DNA from: Planctomycetota bacterium
GTDB lineage: Bacteria; Planctomycetota; Planctomycetia; Planctomycetales; Planctomycetaceae
Assembly (NCBI GenBank): GCA_030836185.1
Contig: JAURQH010000105.1
Location: 1 to 55,970 of the forward strand
Direction: 5' to 3'
Length of the DNA stretch: 55,970 nucleotides
Below the pieces are notes generated by a model. The model ran no database searches, was not told the origin of the DNA, and saw only the letters and a list, made by a program, of their open reading frames with translations. The position numbers and the translations under genes are program-made. Every line of letters starts with the position of its first letter. Position 1 is the first letter of the stretch. This document shows, one piece after another, positions 306-55,970 of the stretch.

Positions 306-3300
306 TTAGGAGAACAGTAGTTCCAAGTCGTCGACGGACATGTCCTTCAATGGATTCCCGGCTTCTGCATGGAGGATCGAATCTGCTAACTCGCGCTTCT
401 GAATTTGCAGTTCGGCGATTTTCTCTTCAACAGTATCTCGGCAAATTAGTCGATAAGCAAAGACTTGCTTGGTTTGACCGACTCGATGGGCGCGGTCGAT
501 GGCTTGTGCCTCGACGGCTGGATTCCACCAAGGGTCGAGGAGAAAGACATAATCGGCTGCCGTCAAGTTCAGGCCGAGGCCTCCTGCTTTGAGACTAATC
601 AGGAACAGGCCGCATTCCTCGTCATTTTGAAAGCGTTCGACTCGTTTCTCACGGTCACGGGTTTTACCGTCGAGATATTCGTAGGTAATCCCTTTTTCGT
701 CGAGTTGGCGACGGACCAAAGAAAGCATGCTGGTAAATTGCGAGAAGACCAACGCTTTATGGTTTTCCTGAATCAGTTCTTCAATGTCGGGAATCAAGAC
801 ATCCAATTTTGCACTCGGTGCATCAATGTGCTCGTCATCGAGTAGCCCGGGATGGCAGGCGACCTGTCGTAAGCGAAGCAGTGCTTCAAGCACGTGCATT
901 TTGGATTTTGAAAAGCCTTGTTTCTGCACCATTCCTAGCAATGACTGTCGGTAGTGGTCACGCATTTCGTCATAGAGTGCTCGTTGTTTTGATCCCATGT
1001 CACAAAGAATCGTTTGTTCCAATTTGTCGGGAAGCTCGTGAGCGACTCCTTTCTTGGTTCGTCTGAGAATAAACGGCTTGAGTCCTTGCGAGAGAACCTG
1101 TCTTGATTGAGTGTCGCCGCTACTCGTCGCGTGTAGTTTAAAGAGCGAGCTTCGTCCCAACATGCCAGGGTTCAGAAATTCAAAAATCGACCACAGATCC
1201 CCGAGATGATTTTCAATGGGTGTACCACTCAATGCGACACGATGGTTTGATTTGAGTAGTCGCGAAGCTTTTGCAATCTGGGAAGAACTGTTTTTGATTG
1301 TTTGAGCTTCGTCCAAGACGATGTAATCGAATCGTTGATCTTTAAGGATCATCACGTCCCGACGCAAGGTGCCGTAAGTTGTCAGGATAATATCTGTTGT
1401 GGCGAATTCTTGCCGAAGCTCTTCCCGTTTGAGACCGGAGTATTCCATGATCGAGAGGTTGGGCGTGAAGCGTTCGCATTCCTGTCGCCAGTTGAACATC
1501 AATGATTTGGGAACCACAATCAAAGACGGAAGTGTTTCGTCTCGCTCACTCTCGCGTTCTTGTAAGAGCGCCAAAAGCTGGACCGTTTTTCCGAGTCCCA
1601 TGTCATCGGCCAAGCAGCCGCCCAAATGAAATTTCTGAAGAAAATCGAGCCAGCCGAGCCCTTCTCGTTGGTAAGGACGTAAGTCTCCTTTGAATGTTTT
1701 GAGTTCTGATTTTTCTTCAATCGAGCTAAACGAGGCGAACTGTTCTCGCATATCGAGGAAGGCTTTGTCAAATTCGACAGGTTGGTCAGAGAGCAATGCG
1801 TCGAGAATTGCCGCTTGGTTTTTGGAGAACTTCAGGGTGTCGCCGTCTTTTTCTCCTAATCCTGCTAGCAGACCGTATTGTTGAAGCCATTCCTCGGGGA
1901 CCAATCCCAGAGAACCGTCATCGAGCCGAATCGTGGTTTCGCCTCGATTGAGCGCGGCGAGCAATTTGGGCAACGAAATTCTGGCGTCGCCAAACTCAAT
2001 CTCTGCATCCAGTTCGAACCAATCGATATTCGTGTTGAGTCGGAATTTCGGCTGGCTTCCTTCGCGAATTTGTTTGCCGTCTGCAAGGACTTCCCAGTTA
2101 TGGTTGACCAGTTCGCGAACGGCAGGACCGAGTTGACGGGCCGAAATTTCAATATCGTGACCCGCTTTTCTTTGATCAAGGATCCTTCGCATGCCGGCTT
2201 CTTGAAGTTGTGCCCAGAGAGCCTCTTCTTTTTCCTGGTCGCGAATGATGCAGCGTTGGCGGTCTCTTTGGACGATTGCCCAGCGTCCCGATGAGCCGCG
2301 CACAATCTCGTCTTCATACTGGAAGAAGACTTCACCCCGTAGCCGTTCAGGTTGCCATTTCAGAGAGGTCGGAGTCATCAACACCAAACGTGGTGTTGGA
2401 GTCCCCTGCACTTCTTCGAGTTGTAGTTCTGGTGGAAGCTCAATTCGAGGAATCGAGGGCATATCCAGAAGTTGTTCAACAAGATCGTGTTGATCATCCA
2501 CGGGGATTTGAAGCGATTGACTGGAATTGAGATGCTCGACCCAAATAAAGGCATCAAAGTCTCGCAGAAGACTGATGCTTTGCTCGTGAAATACGAGCCC
2601 ACCGGGAACCAGTAACTTGACGTCCTTATGAGCCAGCGATTCTTCTCCACGAACAAGCGAGGTACCAACAAGCCACTCGTCGCCGTGAGGTTTTACGGTG
2701 AGGCAGAGTTCCCAAGGGGCTTTTTCATCCCATTCAAGAGGTTCTGCATGATCAATTGATTCATCGAGATATTGAACGCGGCCTGTCCTGCACATCATGG
2801 GTAAAATCAATGTGCAAAGATCGTAGGGGACTCGGTACCGGAAGGATGTTGCTTGAGATTCAGACTGCTGAGCATACCAATTGCTTCTTTCGGGCATCCC
2901 TCCCGAGAGGTAAGCCAGCAGTTGTCGGTCTTCGGCGTTCTCGATTTGATCGAGTTGACCATTTTTGATTTTGAGTGGTTTGACCTTGCCCCATTGACCG
3001 TTTGCTCGGCGTTGTCGTTGCGAAGTCTGGACAACCAGCGTTCCAGTTTCAGAACTCTTTTCGACATCCACTTCATAGACGATCTCTCGTTCGCGTCCAC
3101 CTTTGGTCGCGCCCGTGATCATGGGGTCCATTTCTTCGCGAATCGATTTTAACTGTTCCTCCCAAGCACGAAGCTTGGTGTATTCTTGTTGCGGGGGTTT
3201 TCTTGCCTTTGTGGCTGTACGCGAAGAGCGTTGCGGAGGAAGAGAGTCGAGTGGGTGGTCGTCGTCCCAGTCTTCGTCATCCAAGTCGAGTTCGGGAGTG

Positions 3301-3924: not shown

Positions 3925-5169
3925 ATGCCGGAAAACTTGCCAATTAAGTCAGAATCTGAAATCCGAGAGTGGATTAGTGCGAATGTCCCCCAGGATGATT
4001 TTCGTGACCAAAAACTTTTGTTAATTATTCCCGATGCAACTCGTACCGCTCCCCTGCCGCTGTTATTTCGATCACTCCACGATCATCTTGCCGACGTGAC
4101 TTCCGACTTCGACCTGATTGTGGCGCTGGGAACTCACCCTGCGATGAGCGAGGAAGCGATCTGTCAATTGGTGGGTATTTCCATAGAAGAGCGAAAATCT
4201 CGGTACGCGGAAGTCGGATTGTTCAATCACGAGTGGGACAATCCCGACGCATTGTGGGAGTTGGGGACTTTATCTGAGGAAGAAACCGCAGAAATCACCA
4301 GCGGCGTATTGACGTTGGAAGTTCCCGTCGAAGTGAATGCTCGAATCAAGGATTACGACCGCCTCATGATCGTAGGCCCCGTGTTTCCTCATGAAGTTGT
4401 CGGATTCTCGGGAGGAAACAAGTATTTCTTCCCTGGGATTTCTGGCGCCAAACTCCTCAACTTCTTTCACTGGTTGGGAGCTTTGATCACCAATGTGGGG
4501 ATTATTGGCGTCAAAGGAACTCCGGTGCGGAAAGTCGTGGATCGTTCTGCCGCAATGATCAAGAAGGAAAAGCGATGCCTGGCTTTTGTGGTCAATGGCA
4601 AGGCAGAAATCTACGATCTGTTCTTTGGGACTCCTGAAGAAGCCTGGGAGCAGGCCGCCGATCTTTCGGCGAGGGTTCATATTGAACGGAAACCAAAAGC
4701 CTTTCAGACTGTTCTCTCCTGCTCGCCCGAGATGTACGACGAACTTTGGACGGCGGGCAAGTGTATGTATAAGCTTGAGCCAGTGGTCGCAGATGGCGGC
4801 GAGTTGATTATTTACGCCCCACATCTCGATGAGATTTCCATTGCACATGGAGAGTGGATTCACAAAATTGGGTATCACTGTCGAGATTATTTCACGCAAC
4901 AATGGGAACAATTCAAACATGTCCCTTGGGGAGTGTTGGCACATTCGACGCATGTTCGCGGAGGTGGAACTTTCGAAAACGGCGTGGAAAAGTGTCGAGT
5001 CAAGGTGACTCTGGCATCGAAGGTTCCGCGCGAAGTGTGTGAATCGATTAACCTTGGATATCGTGATCCGGCGACCATTGATCCCGCAGATTATGCTAAC
5101 CGAGAGGATGAAGGGATTCTGCTGGTTCCCAAAGCGGGAGAAATGTTGTATCGGCTGGAAGGTGAATGA
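3925..5169 (+). CDS. LarA-family (lactate racemase-like) protein
   Basis: 414 residues, the usual length for LarA. LarA enzymes racemise lactate or related 2-hydroxyacids using a nickel-pincer nucleotide bound to a lysine. Visible here: the N-terminal D-x-TR motif (D37-TR), the GTHP segment (H71), and the PHEVVGFSGGNKYFFPG block at 155-171. That block corresponds to the family's histidine-plus-lysine cofactor site (H156, K166), with a further H182. Nothing resembling larB, larC or larE is in the window, so cofactor supply must be encoded elsewhere or the protein has another 2-hydroxyacid role. ATG with GGAGAG at -9. An inositol-monophosphatase-like gene follows 130 bp later on the same strand. 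Confidence 0.85.
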   Translation: MPENLPIKSESEIREWISANVPQDDFRDQKLLLIIPDATRTAPLPLLFRSLHDHLADVTSDFDLIVALGTHPAMSEEAICQLVGISIEERKSRYAEVGLFNHEWDNPDALWELGTLSEEETAEITSGVLTLEVPVEVNARIKDYDRLMIVGPVFPHEVVGFSGGNKYFFPGISGAKLLNFFHWLGALITNVGIIGVKGTPVRKVVDRSAAMIKKEKRCLAFVVNGKAEIYDLFFGTPEEAWEQAADLSARVHIERKPKAFQTVLSCSPEMYDELWTAGKCMYKLEPVVADGGELIIYAPHLDEISIAHGEWIHKIGYHCRDYFTQQWEQFKHVPWGVLAHSTHVRGGGTFENGVEKCRVKVTLASKVPREVCESINLGYRDPATIDPADYANREDEGILLVPKAGEMLYRLEGE

Positions 5170-50177: not shown

Positions 50178-50209
50178 GGGGGCGATCGGCTTCGACTGGA
50201 TGACTGTAA

Positions 50210-50252
<43 letters not shown>

Positions 50253-50270
50253 ACTGATCAAACAACAATT

Positions 50271-50300
50271 GCCAAACCTTCTTTGGCTTTGGCTGCATAA
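50271..50300 (+). other. tmRNA-encoded proteolysis tag AKPSLALAA
   Basis: Resume codon GCC at 50271 followed by AAA CCT TCT TTG GCT TTG GCT GCA and TAA at 50298-50300. The tag ends in ALAA, the common degradation signal read by ClpXP-type proteases. Position directly after PK1 supports the frame. Confidence 0.85.
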
Positions 50301-50460
50301 CATGCAGTCACCGGCTTTCGGAATCCCCGCCTGAGGAGTCCGACAAGCTGGTCACAAAATTAGGCTGGCTTCCATTCACCGCCCGCTACGGTGGAAGCGA
50401 GACACGTTGTGGGCTGGCTGAGTGAGGCTTTGTTTGTTGAGCCAAGCTTAGTGAGATTAA

Positions 50461-51876
50461 TCAATAGACTACACACGTAGAGGCTTCAGCCGAGGCATCA
50501 CAGGACGCGGGTTCGATTCCCGCCGCCTCCAATATGGCACCGCCAATGACTGGCGGTGCCTTTTTTTGTCTCCCGTTGCCAGAAGGTGACTCATCATCAG
50601 TACTTGCGTGATCTTCGTTTTCGCCAGTAGAGTGACATTCACTGCCCTCGGGCGTCTCGGCCTGCCCCTCGCAGACGCGTGATTTGCTGCAAATATGCTG
50701 CGACGAACTGGAAATATGCTGCGACTCTGACTCAGTTGGGCGGCGGGTTTCCAGCCATTTCGGATCGGTGGGCAGGTTCTGAATACCCTTCGCCTGATCC
50801 TCCAATCCGATGTGCGTGTACCGCATCGTCATCTTCACGTCGGCATGTCGAGCCAACTCGCGAGTGACGACTAGTGAAGTACCGTTCCTCAGCAGTCCCG
50901 TGATGTAAGTGTGCCGCCCAGCCGCATGGAAGTCAGCATCGCCATCTTTCGTGCTGAAAGGGATTCCAGCAGCTTCGAGATCTTTACGAATCATCGTGTA
51001 GGCTTTCCTTTTGCCCAGTTTGGGAAAAAGTGGCTCTCCGAGCGGGTATTCTGGCAACCACTGTTTCAGAAGAGAAGCAAGTTGTGGATGAAGTGGAAGG
51101 ACATCTTTTTTGCGATGTTTTGAGTTTTTCGCTTCGAGTGTCAGGGTGGGCGGCTCCGATTCAAGCTGAAAACTCTCCGGAGTCAGGCTGGCAATTTCTC
51201 CTTTTCGAAGTCCTGTCAGGTAGCTGAGGAGGTAAATCCGGGCTCGTTGCTCACCAGAGTAGCATTGGTAACTCTTCGTACTTGTGCGGGCGGCATCGAC
51301 CAACAGTGACATTACCTCCTGCGTCAGAGCTCGTCGCTTTTTCCGGATGTCGACTTCCGTGTTCCTCAGCTCCAAGTCAATCAGGGGATTCCCTGCGAGT
51401 CGACGCGGAACAAGCCAGGCCACGAATTCTTTGACCGCCTGAATGTGGTGATTCACCGTTCGAGGACTCAGATTGCCTCGTTTTTGAATGGAGACGATTG
51501 CCGACTCAACCCGATCTAAAGTGATTTCCGAAGGTGTCGCAATCCCTGCTTCTTCGAGTACAGCCCTGATGCGGGATGAGATCAGCTTCATATACTTCTC
51601 AGTTCGCCCTTTCGAGCGGATTGTTTCGATAAACTCTTCGAGGTGCCTGATCGCACAACGCTTTGCTTGAGTGGCAAGCTCTTCTGATGCCAGATCAATC
51701 AGACCATCACGTCGGAGCTTTGCCTCATGCTCAAGCTTATTGGCAAGTCGAAGGCTTTCCTGCTTGTCGGTGAAACCCTTCTTTTGTCGGCTCCGACCAT
51801 GGGCGTCGATGTACTGGACTGTCCAGAACGCATTCTTCTTACCGTTTTTGTCCTTCCGCTTGAAGACACTAGCCAT
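50461..51876 (-). CDS. Tyrosine recombinase/integrase of the ssrA-linked island
   Basis: 471 residues from the ATG at 51876, with GGAGGG about eight bases upstream. SAM-like N-terminal domain about 65-160. Catalytic domain 185-360: R224 in TGLRKGE, the box-II segment FHAAGRHTY (H317, R321; one residue longer than the usual H-x-x-R), H344 in LARHADV, and nucleophile Y353 in RYTHIG. The last residues are encoded by the ssrA terminator and the ssrA 3' end on the opposite strand, as in tRNA/tmRNA-targeting integrases. It should excise and integrate the island. The start overlaps the excisionase gene by eight bases. Confidence 0.92.
   Translation of the reverse strand: MASVFKRKDKNGKKNAFWTVQYIDAHGRSRQKKGFTDKQESLRLANKLEHEAKLRRDGLIDLASEELATQAKRCAIRHLEEFIETIRSKGRTEKYMKLISSRIRAVLEEAGIATPSEITLDRVESAIVSIQKRGNLSPRTVNHHIQAVKEFVAWLVPRRLAGNPLIDLELRNTEVDIRKKRRALTQEVMSLLVDAARTSTKSYQCYSGEQRARIYLLSYLTGLRKGEIASLTPESFQLESEPPTLTLEAKNSKHRKKDVLPLHPQLASLLKQWLPEYPLGEPLFPKLGKRKAYTMIRKDLEAAGIPFSTKDGDADFHAAGRHTYITGLLRNGTSLVVTRELARHADVKMTMRYTHIGLEDQAKGIQNLPTDPKWLETRRPTESESQHISSSSQHICSKSRVCEGQAETPEGSECHSTGENEDHASTDDESPSGNGRQKKAPPVIGGAILEAAGIEPASCDASAEASTCVVY
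50508..50531 (+). repeat. Putative integration (att) core in the 3' end of ssrA
   Basis: The T-arm and acceptor 3' half of ssrA (around 50508-50531) is a classic tyrosine-recombinase target, and the integrase reads into it on the opposite strand. No second copy was found to 55970, so only the left junction is defined. Confidence 0.55.
50536..50567 (+). terminator. Intrinsic terminator after ssrA
   Basis: GGCACCGCCA (50536-50545) and TGGCGGTGCC (50551-50560) form a perfect 10-bp stem with loop ATGAC, followed by seven T. It terminates ssrA transcription and lies inside the 3' coding end of the antisense integrase gene. Confidence 0.9.
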
Positions 51877-52114
51877 CGTGACGCCCTCCCTCACTCTTAT
51901 GAACCACAGGGGATGGACAGCCATTGCGAATCCATTGTTCGATCTCTTCGAGATTCCATCGGGTCAACTTGCCAATTTTCACTGGCTGTATCACGTCACC
52001 GCGACTCTTGAGGCGGTGAAGCTGGCGGATACTGATCTGCAGCATATCTGCGACTTCTTGGTCCGTTATCAGGGCTACTCGATTGATTGGGGCATCGGGT
52101 TGGTTCTTTTGCAC
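51869..52114 (-). CDS. Excisionase-like helix-turn-helix protein
   Basis: 81 residues. The core LITDQEVADMLQIS...RLKSRGDVIQPVKIGKLTRW is the MerR/excisionase (HTH_17) fold, with the wing residues typical of recombination directionality factors. It overlaps the integrase start, so both are expressed together. It likely biases the integrase toward excision. Confidence 0.8.
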   Translation of the reverse strand: MQKNQPDAPINRVALITDQEVADMLQISIRQLHRLKSRGDVIQPVKIGKLTRWNLEEIEQWIRNGCPSPVVHKSEGGRHDG

Positions 52115-52195
52115 GACTTACTCCCTGCAAATTTCAGCAGTCTTCACCTCTCGTCCCTGATCTCCCTGTGGTGTGAAAACAATCCCCTAATGGAA

Positions 52196-52223
52196 TTGAC
52201 ACACTAGGACCTCATGTTATCAT
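52196..52223 (+). promoter_or_regulatory. Strong sigma-70-type promoter
   Basis: Perfect TTGACA (52196-52201), 16-bp spacer and TATCAT (52218-52223, 5/6). Transcription would start near 52230, inside the adjacent palindrome, and run toward the RHH gene and the reverse transcriptase. Confidence 0.72.
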
Positions 52224-52225
52224 TA

Positions 52226-52264
52226 GTCTCTGGAGACGTCAATACTCCTAGGGACTCCAGAGAC
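52226..52264 (+). promoter_or_regulatory. 10-bp inverted repeat, probable operator
   Basis: GTCTCTGGAG (52226-52235) and CTCCAGAGAC (52255-52264) are perfectly complementary and start three bases after the -10. A repressor bound here would block initiation; the RHH protein encoded 56 bp downstream is the obvious candidate. A smaller TCGCG-AAA-CGCGA hairpin follows at 52291-52303. Confidence 0.6.
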
Positions 52265-52319
52265 CTTTCGGCAACAATTTATCCATGCAGTCGCGAAACG
52301 CGATAGGAATGAACATGCC

Positions 52320-52526
52320 ATGAACAAGAAAGTGCCTAACGACAAGTCCGCCGACAAACCGCCCATGAAACAAATGAAGGTATTCTTAACGACACAGGAA
52401 CATGCCGTTGTTACAGCGGCTGCCAACATGAAGGGCATGCAAGTCGGTGACTATATGAAACAGGCCGTGATCGATCACGCCAAGAAAGATGCAAAGGAAA
52501 TGAACAAGATCATCGACTCACTTTAA
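52320..52526 (+). CDS. Small ribbon-helix-helix-like protein
   Basis: 68 residues. A strand-like KVFLTTQEHAVV is followed by helices AAANMKGMQVGDYMKQAVIDHAKK, matching the RHH (MetJ/Arc) pattern of antitoxins and plasmid regulators. Lys-rich N-terminus. It lies behind a strong promoter with a palindromic operator, so autoregulation is likely. No toxin gene is adjacent; the next recognisable gene is the reverse transcriptase. Confidence 0.62.
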   Translation: MNKKVPNDKSADKPPMKQMKVFLTTQEHAVVTAAANMKGMQVGDYMKQAVIDHAKKDAKEMNKIIDSL

Positions 52527-52545
52527 ATTCCGGAATTTAGAGTGA
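52518..52545. repeat. 28-bp near-perfect palindrome at the RHH gene end
   Basis: Arms of 14 bp with one mismatch and no loop, centred on TTCCGGAA, overlapping the RHH stop codon. A shorter relative lies at 52855-52872 (see that entry). Confidence 0.6.
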
Positions 52546-52598
52546 GGATCATGAGAATAAAAACGAGACAAGCAAGAAGAATGACCACATGAAAATCA

Positions 52599-52736
52599 AT
52601 GAGAACCAAAGTGAAACCGTCTCCGCTAAAGGCCGTAACAAATGCTGTTTCCATTTTGGGACTGGCCAAAGAAGCGGCAGAGTTTGTTGGAGGTTTAATC
52701 ACTTCCCCTTTCCTGTGGAAACATTCAGAACGCTGA
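52599..52736 (+). CDS. Possible 45-residue small protein
   Basis: ATG 52599 to TGA 52736. The sequence begins MRTKVKPSPLKAVTNAV and continues with an amphipathic SILGLAKEAAEFVGGLITSP stretch, which looks more protein-like than the overlapping frames. There is no strong ribosome site. It lies in the cassette between the two TTAAAT-CCGGA palindromes. Function unknown; may be spurious. Confidence 0.3.
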   Translation: MRTKVKPSPLKAVTNAVSILGLAKEAAEFVGGLITSPFLWKHSER

Positions 52737-52854
52737 GAACAAAACGGAAACAGGAAGAGCGAGAGGAGAAATAGCATGAATAAACAACACCACGATTTGA
52801 AAGGAGGATCACGAAGAAGCATTAACAACCAGGAAATTAGCTAAGCCATCTCCC

Positions 52855-52872
52855 TTAAATCCGGATTTTAGA
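52855..52872. repeat. Second palindrome related to the one at 52523-52541
   Basis: TTAAATCCGGATTTTAGA here resembles TTAAATTCCGGAATTTAGA at 52523-52541, so a related palindromic element flanks a segment of about 330 bp. A further partial match, TTTAATTCCGGAT, is at 55545-55557. Confidence 0.5.
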
Positions 52873-52948
52873 TTTTTGGAGATAAAGAAAGAGGTTGTAG
52901 GCAAACAAGTACCAGAGATCTTTAACCATTAACTGAAAAGGAGAAATC

Positions 52949-53157
52949 ACTCCCCGTGATAATGAGGGGAAAAGTTAAGACGTCATTATCAGAAGTCTTA
53001 CCGGCTTACTCATTACCTGTTTTGGCTCTACGGATACTCATCAGGAGTATTCACAGAAGACATCAGGACCTGTAGTGAGCTGCTGAGATAGAGGAGCAGG
53101 GGCAACATGTTCGCCCTGGGCTCCGCCGTCAGGGCCACTGAAAAATTTTGCCCCTGC
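52949..53157 (+). ncRNA. Candidate structured RNA upstream of the reverse transcriptase
   Basis: Successive perfect stems: TGATAATGA (52957-52965)/TCATTATCA (52983-52991); ATACTC (53034-53039)/GAGTAT (53045-53050); and an outer 10-bp stem GCAGGGGCAA (53096-53105)/TTGCCCCTGC (53148-53157) enclosing GCCCTG (53113-53118)/CAGGGC (53130-53135). It ends just before the RT frame, has no coding frame of its own, and sits where retrons and other RT systems keep their template RNA. The sequence does not match a known RNA family that I can recognise. Confidence 0.45.
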
Positions 53158-53224
53158 CTTGAGCCGATCAGAAAGAGTTCAAGGTCGGGGCTTCTCTCAC
53201 CGTCGATTACTCAGAATCAGCCTG

Positions 53225-54643
53225 ATGCCAAACTCAAATACAGGAATGCAATTCGATCCAGTCGCATCTGCCCAAAAAGTGCAGGCAAGTGTCGAGCAAG
53301 CAATGATTGAAGAGAAGGAAAAATCAGAACAGATGAGGCGGGTGGGGATTCTCCGCCGACACTACAACCGCTTACAGAGCTGCTACCTGGGTAACCGCGT
53401 AAAGGCTTATAGCAAGCCTCTTCCGGCATATGAACGTGCAGTGAAAGATTGGGCATTGCAATCGAAGGAGAAGAAGCATGAGCACTGCGAAACATTGTTC
53501 CAGGCGGTCGCCAACCCAATGATGCTTGACGCGTCACTGAATGAACTTGGTCCCAGACTTCGATTGACACAGGATGAAAAAGAGATCTTGAATTCTGGTT
53601 CTTCGGCGATGTGGGCATGGCTAAGGGGCATTCAGTACGACCTACTCCATAAGTATTTTCGCCGGGGGAAATATCAGAAGTACAAGATCTCCAAACCGGG
53701 CAATCAGGGCTATCGCACGATCGAGGTGCCGAACACGGAAACTCGAATCGTTGCTAAAACGACGCTGAGAGTATTGAGCCCACTTCTTGATCCTGATTTC
53801 TACCCCCTGAGTATCGGTTTCCGCCCCAATCGCTCTGCCCTGCACGGTATCGCTGCAGCAGAGCAACTTCAGCGGCGAGACATGACGCACTGGGTCAAGT
53901 GTGACATCCGCGATGCCTTTGGTCAGATCCCGAAACCGACTCTGCTGGAGGTCCTGAATTCACGTCTCCACGGATCTTCGATCATGTGGCTAATTGAGGA
54001 GATATTGGATAGGAATCGAAAGCGAGGCATTCCTCAGGGGGTCTCAATAAGTCCGCTGGCGATGAATGTCTACCTTGATCATTTTCTTGATAAGTGGTGG
54101 GCCAAGCGTTTCCCGGACACGTGCATGGTGCGATACGCCGACGATATCTTGATCGCATGCCCAACTCGCCAGTCAGCGATTAACGCGTTCAATTCACTCC
54201 AGCAGCAAACCATGACGATCGGAATGCCGCTCAAGGAAAAGCAAACCGACGCGGTATTCGATCTCAATGGTGGCGACGTGGTTGAATGGCTCGGATTCCA
54301 GATTCGACTCCAAGGTGAAGTGCTGAAGTGCTCAATCGGAACTAAAAGCTGGGACAGCCTGGAGTACAAACTCCGAGAGGTCAGAACTCGGATGGAAAAA
54401 GTCGAGAGTTACAGTGACGCGGATCTCGTGTCGATTGGCTTTGGACGCGTTCTCGAAAAAGCTATTGCCATCGAAGAACAAAAAGTGCCTACGGTTGCCG
54501 AACAAATCAGAGAGTTGGCCGAGGAATGTAATCTCGACATGTCAGGCTTTACGGACGTCGAAGCTTTCAAGGCGTGGTCGATAGGACGTCAAAAATGGCA
54601 GGAAGCTCGAGAGCAGGTTCTCCAGTGGCTTCCTGCTGTATGA
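53225..54643 (+). CDS. Reverse transcriptase, group-II-like, without maturase or endonuclease domain
   Basis: 472 residues from the ATG at 53225; TTG 53159 and ATG 53246 are alternatives. RT core: RTIEVPNTETRIV, GFRPNRSA (198-205), KCDIRDAFG with D227, RGIPQGVSISPL (267-278), catalytic YADD (304-307) and EWLGF (354-358). These are most like group II intron RTs. However, the protein ends about 110 residues after motif 7 in a short helical domain with no maturase domain X and no HNH endonuclease. The retron marks NAxxH and VTG are absent, and the SPL form rules against a DGR RT. About 150 N-terminal residues are unassigned. A related C-terminus occurs again downstream. Confidence 0.88.
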   Translation: MPNSNTGMQFDPVASAQKVQASVEQAMIEEKEKSEQMRRVGILRRHYNRLQSCYLGNRVKAYSKPLPAYERAVKDWALQSKEKKHEHCETLFQAVANPMMLDASLNELGPRLRLTQDEKEILNSGSSAMWAWLRGIQYDLLHKYFRRGKYQKYKISKPGNQGYRTIEVPNTETRIVAKTTLRVLSPLLDPDFYPLSIGFRPNRSALHGIAAAEQLQRRDMTHWVKCDIRDAFGQIPKPTLLEVLNSRLHGSSIMWLIEEILDRNRKRGIPQGVSISPLAMNVYLDHFLDKWWAKRFPDTCMVRYADDILIACPTRQSAINAFNSLQQQTMTIGMPLKEKQTDAVFDLNGGDVVEWLGFQIRLQGEVLKCSIGTKSWDSLEYKLREVRTRMEKVESYSDADLVSIGFGRVLEKAIAIEEQKVPTVAEQIRELAEECNLDMSGFTDVEAFKAWSIGRQKWQEAREQVLQWLPAV

Positions 54644-54696
54644 AAGTTCAATGGAACCGGCTCGGAATAACGACTGAACGCGTTGCTAAGCCGATT

Positions 54697-54710
54697 GCTT
54701 TTGGTCTGAC
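54697..54710 (+). repeat. 14-bp direct repeat, copy 1
   Basis: GCTTTTGGTCTGAC here recurs at 55670-55683, bracketing the RT-remnant and hairpin array. Confidence 0.4.
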
Positions 54711-54781
54711 TTACAGGCGGTGAATACAGATTACGCTGTTCCCTTTCTGCTTCCTGACTCGTCGACAACATTGTTTGGGTC

Positions 54782-54963
54782 ATGCGGTTGGCCATTGATG
54801 AGGCGGCTGTTCCAGCTGTAGCCGGTCAGGTTCGTCAGGTTGCCGCCCACGTTGGACTCAACATGCCATCTCTCGATGAAGAGATGGCATACGATGCGTG
54901 GACGCGAAGCGTGCCGAGAAGGAGGTGTTGGAGTGTTTACAGGAGACAGCAGTGGCTCACTGA
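54782..54963 (+). pseudogene. Remnant of a second RT C-terminus (frameshifted)
   Basis: The translation RLAIDEAAVPAVAGQVRQ...LNMPSLDEEMAYDAW aligns with the RT C-terminal EKAIAIEEQKVPTVAEQIRE...LDMSGFTDVEAFKAW. After DAW the match continues in another frame as KRAEKEVLECLQ, against KWQEAREQVLQW, to a TGA at 54961-54963. The RT catalytic core is missing. It is evidence of a second, related RT that has been lost except for its tail. The nucleotide sequence differs too much for a recent duplication. Confidence 0.65.
54863..54890. repeat. Perfect 11-bp stem-loop inside the RT remnant
   Basis: ATGCCATCTCT (54863-54873), loop CGATGA, AGAGATGGCAT (54880-54890). The corresponding part of the intact RT gene has no such hairpin. 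Confidence 0.55.
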
Positions 54964-55138
54964 TAACACGCGGTCTCGGACATCAACTTCAAGTCAGCGG
55001 AGCAAATCAGGTGAAAAGCAGTTGGAGGGAGCCCTCGAATTCCCCAGATCGAGTCAATAAGGTCTTCCATATTTGTATCGAAACTCGAAATCGTTATAAG
55101 ACCAAAGTGCTTCGTGAAGGCCAGATTCGAGGCGGCAC

Positions 55139-55174
55139 ATAGACATATTCCACCAATTGGTGGATTATGTCTAT
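55139..55174. repeat. 36-bp near-perfect palindrome
   Basis: 18-bp arms with a single mismatch and no loop, centred on CCACCAATTGGTGG. No T-run on either side. Larger than a typical operator; may be a recombination or protein-binding site, or a DNA hairpin. Confidence 0.65.
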
Positions 55175-55249
55175 ATCAGAAGCTTTGCTACACGAAAAAG
55201 CCCACCGACCGCGTATGAACGCAGCCGACAGGCATGGGCCCAGGCGAGT

Positions 55250-55281
55250 GTCTTCCATCGGTCCAAAGGTCGATGGAAGAC
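55250..55281. repeat. Perfect 11-bp stem-loop
   Basis: GTCTTCCATCG (55250-55260) and CGATGGAAGAC (55271-55281) with a ten-base loop. Followed by GCCCGT/ACGGGC (55324-55329/55337-55342) and a direct repeat CGACGCCGAT at 55344-55353 and 55371-55380. Confidence 0.55.
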
Positions 55282-55436
55282 TTACGGTGTTGTCCGGGCC
55301 ACAGGGACGCCACCGTCTCGCTTGCCCGTCAGCTCAACGGGCTCGACGCCGATCGGACCCTCTTGGTGACCGACGCCGATTGACGTGCTTTGGCTGGCTC
55401 CTCCTTTCGATACAGGGTGACTGGGGTTTCCACTCA

Positions 55437-55479
55437 GGTCTGTCCGGCCTGACGTGACAGGTGTTGGGTAGCACAGACC
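55437..55479. repeat. Two-level stem-loop
   Basis: GGTCTGT (55437-55443)/ACAGACC (55473-55479) encloses CCTG (55448-55451)/CAGG (55458-55461). Followed by a T-run at 55481-55487, so on the plus strand it could act as a terminator for a transcript crossing the hairpin array. Confidence 0.5.
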
Positions 55480-55827
55480 GTTTTTTTCTGACTTACAAAT
55501 AGAATCGCAGGGTCGTAACACGACTTGGCGAGAATTTTCGTAAGTTTAATTCCGGATGAGGTTTGAACTGAATCACACCACTTGCCCGCAGAAGATTTCG
55601 TGAGGGGCGTGTCGGGTGTGCAGGGGTGGCCTGGGGATAAGAAAAACTCTTTGCAACAAGTCACATCGAGCTTTTGGTCTGACACTCAGCTGCCGCCTGC
55701 TAATTAAGTGAAATTTGAGAACTCCCCGTGATGCCTTGTCTCGAAAAAGGCTGTGATTCGCTCTTGGGGCTCACTCGATGGATATCGAAGCAGCGTAACA
55801 CGAACGCTGTCGTGCGAAGGCAGCGGT
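55480..55827. other. Non-coding stretch before the DUF1501 fragment
   Basis: No convincing gene. It holds a small hairpin GTCGT-AAC-ACGAC (55512-55524), the second copy of GCTTTTGGTCTGAC (55670-55683) and ACTCCCCGTGAT (55721-55732), which also occurs at 52949-52960. Confidence 0.35.
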
Positions 55828-55970
55828 GCAAAAACCGTGCATGTACATGATTTTCACGCCACAATCCTCCATCTGATGGGCTTTGATCACGAGAAACTGA
55901 CCTACCGACACGCTGGGCGAGATTATCGGTTGACAGATGTTTCAGGACACGTGGCGCAGGACATTCTCGC
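55828..55970 (+). pseudogene. C-terminal fragment of a DUF1501 protein (runs off window)
   Basis: The frame from 55732 becomes recognisable only at [19 protein letters not shown], followed by [17 protein letters not shown]: the highly conserved C-terminus of planctomycete DUF1501 (sulfatase-like) proteins. Upstream sequence in the frame is unrelated, so the gene is truncated at its 5' side, probably by rearrangement. Such proteins are usually paired with DUF1549/DUF1553 genes, which are not visible here. Confidence 0.75.

Follow-up and report, generated by a model that had tools for sequence, protein, structure and literature searches.

A rare group II-like reverse transcriptase family of planctomycetes with a conserved upstream non-coding segment

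What does a reverse transcriptase (RT) with a group II-like core do beside the ssrA gene of a planctomycete, and does the non-coding DNA in front of its gene provide an RNA partner? The question is raised by a contig of a Planctomycetota bacterium (JAURQH010000105.1, assembly GCA_030836185.1), whose 55,970 nucleotides were analysed as a whole and are called the window here. An earlier, sequence-only reading of this DNA had described a stand-alone RT on an ssrA-integrated island, behind a regulated promoter and next to a structured non-coding segment. We compared the RT, its flanks and its relatives with known RT systems, and the features of the window are collected in Table 1.

Table 1. Features of the window around the RT gene (forward-strand positions).
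Feature	Position	Strand	Basis
ssrA tmRNA, presumed integration target	50178-50534	+	tmRNA search
Tyrosine integrase	50461-51924	-	PF00589, 1.9e-18; phrog_1
HTH_17 protein, excisionase-like	51869-52114	-	Pfam
Sigma-70-like promoter, TTGACA-16-TATCAT	52196-52223	+	11/12 matches, TG before -10; ahead of the RHH-like gene
Ribbon-helix-helix (RHH)-like protein, 68 aa	52320-52526	+	DUF6290/NikA/ParD/RelB matches, all below cut-off
Palindrome centred on CCGG that spans the stop codon of the RHH-like gene	52517-52546	+	repeat search
Non-coding segment of 698 nt from the RHH-like stop to the RT start, a candidate ncRNA or leader	52527-53224	+	conserved with L072
Hairpins at the 3' end of the segment: a stem enclosing a hairpin with a UCCGCC loop, and a terminal hairpin roughly 35 nt from the RT start	53096-53190	+	predicted fold
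Reverse transcriptase, 472 aa, YADD at 304-307	53225-54643	+	ATG 53225 to stop 54643; orthologues in four further genomes
Relic of a second RT C-terminus, L048 subtype	54788-54910	+	tblastn, 63% over 41 aa, E 5e-13

The RT family and its place among known RT systems

Translation of the RT gene located the motifs GFRPNRSA, QGVSISP (residue 271) and YADD (residue 304), all intact, in agreement with the group II-like core proposed earlier. RVT_1 is the sole Pfam match up to E 1 (residues 155-360, 1.9e-27), and at this threshold maturase and endonuclease domains are indeed missing. The group II RT/maturase profile TIGR04416 aligns with residues 133-393 at 143.7 bits; the RTs of the window and of the related loci L072, L047 and L048 score 140-146 bits, all below the cut-off of 300 bits. 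Since this match spans residues 133 to 393, the C-terminal helices begin at the thumb position, which corrects the boundary drawn previously for a short C-terminal helical domain. An unassigned N-terminal stretch also exists, but it comes to about 85 residues instead of about 150, because the RT part of Cas6-RT-Cas1 aligns with the window RT from about residue 87 onward. The RT0 pattern G-x-D/N-G is absent from the five RTs of the family and present in three sister RTs; it is not diagnostic, because a plasmid group II RT used as control lacks it as well. A single-sequence AlphaFold run on the window RT reached a pLDDT of 37 and gave no usable model.

Orthologues with 44-62% identity occur in four further genomes, all of them planctomycetes. 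The RT of G912 is nearest to the window RT (62%), followed by those of G328 (49%) and of G262 and G181 (44%). The family of five comprises the loci of the window, L047, L048, L049 and L072, and YADD and QGxxxSP are intact in each of its RTs. This RT family is rare. The genome draws, of 45-397 genomes, overlap and their counts cannot be summed: in a class draw of 397 genomes, 22 matched at E 1e-30 or lower and three besides the window were orthologues; a second class draw (376 genomes) returned G912, G181, G262 and G328; and in the phylum draw (392 genomes) the window stood alone at E 1e-50 or lower. The window's family (170 genomes, the order being the same set) yielded the window itself, G262 and G181, and the family of G328 (241 genomes) yielded G328 and G912. 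Another family of 95 genomes gave no RT match, and a further one of 45 genomes gave a single matched genome with two distant RTs. Among 99 relatives, the next-best RT match was 35-36% identical. The window's own genome holds one other RT match, on a separate contig, with 32% identity and a TIGR04416 score of 318.6 bits, above the group II cut-off. Among the matches listed to plasmid records (at least 5000), all had less than 60% identity and none covered 80%; the RT matched 33 phage records, again none covering 80%. Scans of viral-contig and genome-contig collections with short peptide patterns found nothing, which is weak evidence of absence, and among the literature matches listed no paper names the five-member family.

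A quick maximum-likelihood tree was built from 52 RTs, chosen for their resemblance to the window RT, with no retron, UG or CRISPR reference among them. The five family RTs form one clade (SH-aLRT 100), nested in a planctomycete clade of 25 rows (SH-aLRT 100). Among the remaining 27 rows are L079, a group II RT from a plasmid, two phage RTs that carry a retron-type annotation, and the DGR RT of BPP-1 on a long branch. Twelve of these 27 intron-side rows were scanned and all twelve exceed the TIGR04416 cut-off (319-450 bits, both 'retron-type' RTs included); eight scanned sister-clade RTs score 134-170 bits. Within the family, two RT subtypes run parallel to two subtypes of the upstream segment. 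Group II intron RNA was sought with Rfam and not found, neither at the gathering threshold in the window and in L047-L049 nor, with E relaxed to 5, within the 4 kb surrounding four of the five RTs (L001, L070, L071, L051). Thus, the family shares its RT core with group II intron RTs, but reaches less than half their profile score, has no maturase or endonuclease match and no intron RNA, and lies outside them in the tree as a separate clade. Placement among ordinary group II introns had been named as the objection to the earlier reading; a group II intron ORF was rejected on the Rfam result, the TIGR04416 score and the tree.

HMM classification likewise placed the RT outside retrons, DRT/UG RTs and group II, in that no model matched at member level. 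The generic RT model of PADLOC gave 139 bits for the window RT and was also the top match for the RTs of L072, L047 and L048. Retrons are small units of an ncRNA and an RT with a defence role, and NAxxH is a motif of their RTs. A second retron RT motif is VTG, according to an excerpt of PMC4244168. As literal patterns, neither occurs in any of the five family RTs, and a retron was rejected on this basis; the unit proposed below would resemble retrons as a small ncRNA-RT pair, here with no msr/msd identified. A DGR was rejected as well: the required repeats are absent near the window RT, with no TR/VR pair in 52100-55970, where the longest direct repeat family measures 27 nt. As to Cas1/Cas2, the RT-Cas1 profile covers the RT part only and the same interval holds no CRISPR array.

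Resemblance exists to the Class 2 UG/DRT systems (DRT2, DRT9 and DRT10, the latter being UG17), which are described in the excerpted text of PMC12632851 as an RT with a cis-encoded non-coding RNA, often in defence islands; the use of such an RNA by Class 2 DRTs is also noted in part of PMC13174585. UG17 is the best UG profile for the window RT, but its 83 bits lie below both the generic RT model and the group II profile. Moreover, the DRT10 RNA has 137 nt, whereas the conserved segment of the five-RT family extends over several hundred. A SLATT partner was sought in four window proteins and none scored above the cut-off (SLATT_4 on the integrase, 13 bits versus a cut-off of 27). Finally, an excerpt of PMC4244168 describes G2L5 as group II-like RTs from three planctomycete sequences, without intron RNA and without a stable place in the trees of that study. 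By description only, G2L5 and the five-RT family have their planctomycete origin, group II-like character and absence of intron RNA in common, but G2L5 is described with a conserved maturase domain and the family has no maturase match.

The ssrA neighbourhood and the RHH-like gene

The location of the RT at ssrA was borne out by a tmRNA, a tyrosine integrase and an HTH_17 protein. The RT starts 2.7 kb from ssrA in the window, and four of the five RTs (window, L047, L048, L049) lie 2.4-3.9 kb from it. In L047, L048 and L049 a recombinase-like gene, split over two frames in L048, is found between ssrA and the RT; we read that of L049 as a tyrosine recombinase, for which Pfam gave no match. The window recombinase (PF00589) is unlike those of the other islands, which are without a Pfam match, and there is no DNA match between them. 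No tmRNA was found within 59 kb in G912, and the only mobile-looking genes among its scanned neighbours are two DDE-type (rve) transposases 22-26 kb from the RT. No ends of the islands were located: each of the four genomes matched by the tmRNA 3' end has a single copy of it. Beyond the window RT the contig continues for another 1.3 kb. A 100-nt stretch at 55704-55805 is 75% identical to two places in L048 (reverse complement 1304-1405 and 3142-3242), suggesting that the island may extend to the contig end. A further 26 nt 3' of both RTs, on opposite strands, are 96% identical between the window (55600-55625) and L072 (12068-12093).

Defence genes lie near the RT, and their membership of the same element is not proven. 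Ten proteins near the RTs, chosen by eye, were scanned with PADLOC. G328 matched type I M and S proteins and, more weakly, an R protein (114 bits); G181 matched type I M and R and an OLD-like protein; and G262 matched Mrr, a TmtA-like protein, type I R, a SNF2/HEPN protein and, weakly, a protein that we read as DUF262-like. These genes are located 1.8-22 kb from the RT, and all three ssrA loci with longer flanks have them. The family loci share no conserved effector gene next to the RT. A Cys-rich CPWCF protein is encoded near the RTs of L048 (15823-16638), L049 (14082-14897), L072 (12637-13446) and, in a shorter version, L047 (12142-12579); the L048 and L072 copies have no Pfam or PHROG match, and the protein looks Rep-like by eye only.

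A small RHH-like gene stands ahead of the RT in all five loci. For the proteins of the window and L048 the RHH assignment comes from scores below threshold, for the other three from place and similarity. Between the window and L047, the RHH-like proteins are 81% identical and the RTs 48%; the window gene and its 5' region match L047 at 78% over 388 nt, while the window RT is closer to L072. We therefore rejected the RHH-like gene as a co-evolving partner of the RT, the gene having been exchanged between loci. Together with the L048-type RT relic, whose presence beside the intact window RT suggests turnover, this pattern suggests an exchange of modules between loci. The flank comparison called for in the sequence-only reading was successful, in that the RHH-like gene and a non-coding segment do precede all five RTs; the former is exchanged, though, and scores below every curated cut-off. 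As to the regulated promoter placed ahead of the RT, the consensus site exists but precedes the RHH-like gene and not the RT, its regulation being presumptive; two such sites were found on both strands versus 1.4 expected. The CCGG palindrome was discarded as a specific operator, its core being present elsewhere in L047, L048, L049 and L072. Palindromes with an AAAT-CCGG core occur at 52857 in the window, at 213 and 5212 of the L048 reverse complement, and at 4275, 8854 and 19859 in L072.

The non-coding segment upstream of the RT

In all five loci the gene order is RHH-like gene, non-coding segment and RT, with segment lengths of 698 nt in the window, 628 in L072, 479 in L047, 663 in L048 and 689 in L049. 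In the L047-L049 subtype the segment is conserved, and an RNA structure is supported. The fourfold sites of the L047 and L048 RT genes are saturated (42/119 identical), and the segments of this pair align with a score of 414 over 463 aligned nt, where the best of 20 mononucleotide shuffles reached 187. A hidden small ORF was rejected, as mismatches in the two longest L047-L048 blocks are without codon phase (10/10/12 and 11/16/10, versus 12/10/36 in an RT control block). The L047 fold, predicted from L047 alone, keeps 115 pairs on L048 versus 102.4 (p 0.0005), with 18 double changes versus 7.4 (0/2000 as high). In the reverse direction, the L048 fold keeps 103 pairs versus 94.1 (p 0.006), and its double changes (10 versus 5.9) reach p 0.05 only; for two coding controls p was 0.35 and 0.65. 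The covariation counts as one independent comparison, because L049 is a near copy of L048. Fold energies relative to shuffles reach z -3.5 for the L048 segment and z -4.4 for the 3' part of L047, and a strong hairpin followed by TTCTT stands directly before the RT start in L047-L049. In L047 (8207) the RT frame has no ATG at the position where its relatives start, and the first in-frame start is a GTG within the terminal hairpin.

In the window the picture is different. Its segment aligns with that of L072 at a score of 323 (20 mononucleotide shuffles: mean 229, maximum 251), the best block being 53115-53149 with L072 10284-10318 (83% over 35 nt), and is barely above shuffles elsewhere (197 versus 189 for L047, 280 versus 262 for L048). 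Pair conservation between the window and L072 does not support a structure (kept pairs p 0.17 for the window fold, 0.98 for the L072 fold). The fold of 53060-53200 has a z of -1.95 (5/200 shuffles as low), that of the whole segment (701 nt) a z of -1.53 (2/20 as low), and that of the L072 3' part, at z -0.9, is hardly better than shuffles. A covariance model (R1) of the 3' part of the L047-L049 segments recovers its three founders and stays at noise level at the homologous places of the window and L072 (2.0 bits, E 6.9). With the window fold unsupported as well, we therefore distinguish two segment subtypes; a single RNA family across the five loci was rejected, the best R1 match in L072 (13.6 bits, E 0.011) lying elsewhere on the other strand. 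The loop word CTCCGCCGT was also dropped as a signal, its one match in the window being equalled by 25/100 shuffles. The structured segment announced earlier is thus weak in the window itself and supported in the relatives' subtype, by the compensatory pairs of L047 and L048, and an RNA role of the window segment would be an extrapolation from these relatives.

Possible roles of the RT and its upstream segment

The reading that we favour, at about even odds and by analogy with other RT systems, is that the RT is an ncRNA-templated, defence-associated enzyme of a group II-like lineage, with the RT-plus-RNA unit travelling as defence cargo. We infer that the RT would bind an RNA transcribed from the segment directly 5' of its gene and would copy part of it into DNA, and that this DNA, or the complex, may act against phages or rival elements in the way that retrons and Class 2 DRTs do. 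Regulation of the operon would probably fall to the RHH-like protein.

It is unlikely, in our judgement, that the RT serves the mobile island itself, in its copy number, spread or regulation, the segment then being an element RNA or a DNA control region. Three observations would suit such a service: at ssrA a recombinase, or a gene resembling one, lies close to four of the five RTs; the RHH-like proteins have a sub-threshold resemblance to NikA/MobA and RelB; and the CPWCF protein recurs in L047, L048, L049 and L072. Against it, the window recombinase differs from those of the other islands, and G912, which has the RHH-like gene, the segment and the RT, lacks a tmRNA in 59 kb and has distant transposases as its sole mobile-looking scanned neighbours. 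We attach a low probability to a domesticated RT with a host role, such as the double-strand-break repair ascribed to G2L4, and with the segment as a long regulatory leader. Group II RTs provide the nearest named profile, and group II-like RTs have a precedent in repair (reference within the excerpted part of PMC13174585); against this stand a patchy, rare and mostly island-borne distribution, the distance of the G2L4 chains (matches of the window RT at E 5e-10) and an RNA structure conserved in one segment subtype.

A similarly low probability falls to the segment acting in the RT mRNA solely as a regulatory leader or terminator region, with another template for the RT or none, as in Class 1 RTs. 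The hairpin and TTCTT before the RT start in L047-L049 and the unsupported structure in the window agree with it, but the conservation between L047 and L048 is long for a terminator. Very improbable is a degenerate group II intron ORF that has lost its ribozyme: its group II-like core would be accounted for, as would the missing maturase match and intron RNA, but the clade is separate from the intron RTs and the RT is open with intact motifs in all five loci despite saturated synonymous sites, which indicates purifying selection on the RT.

If the RT does copy the upstream RNA, RNA-templated defence would have arisen in an RT lineage beyond retrons and UG RTs. More tentatively, and on balance doubtfully, this planctomycete group II-like lineage may represent an independent branch of RNA-templated immunity, distinct from retrons and UG/DRT systems, in which a structured RNA encoded in cis takes the place of the sister clade's protein partner. 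For the group II-like RTs of planctomycetes, whose placement is poor, the loci also provide a testable genomic context. The sister clade, which contains the closest RTs in the tree (the 25-row clade), would then offer a comparison for a change of partner in such systems. An ORF of at least 250 aa lies within 700 bp 5' of the RT in 10 of its 13 larger loci, and in nine of the 13 these upstream partners are mutually related (338-546 aa; L054-L057, L061-L063, L065, L066), whereas the five-RT family has no neighbour of this type. Four partner proteins have no Pfam match, a profile of seven partners gave no convincing PDB match, and the partner appears helicase-like by eye only. Some sister-clade RTs carry RNase H: L055 and L003 have it as a fusion, and L057 has a match to it.
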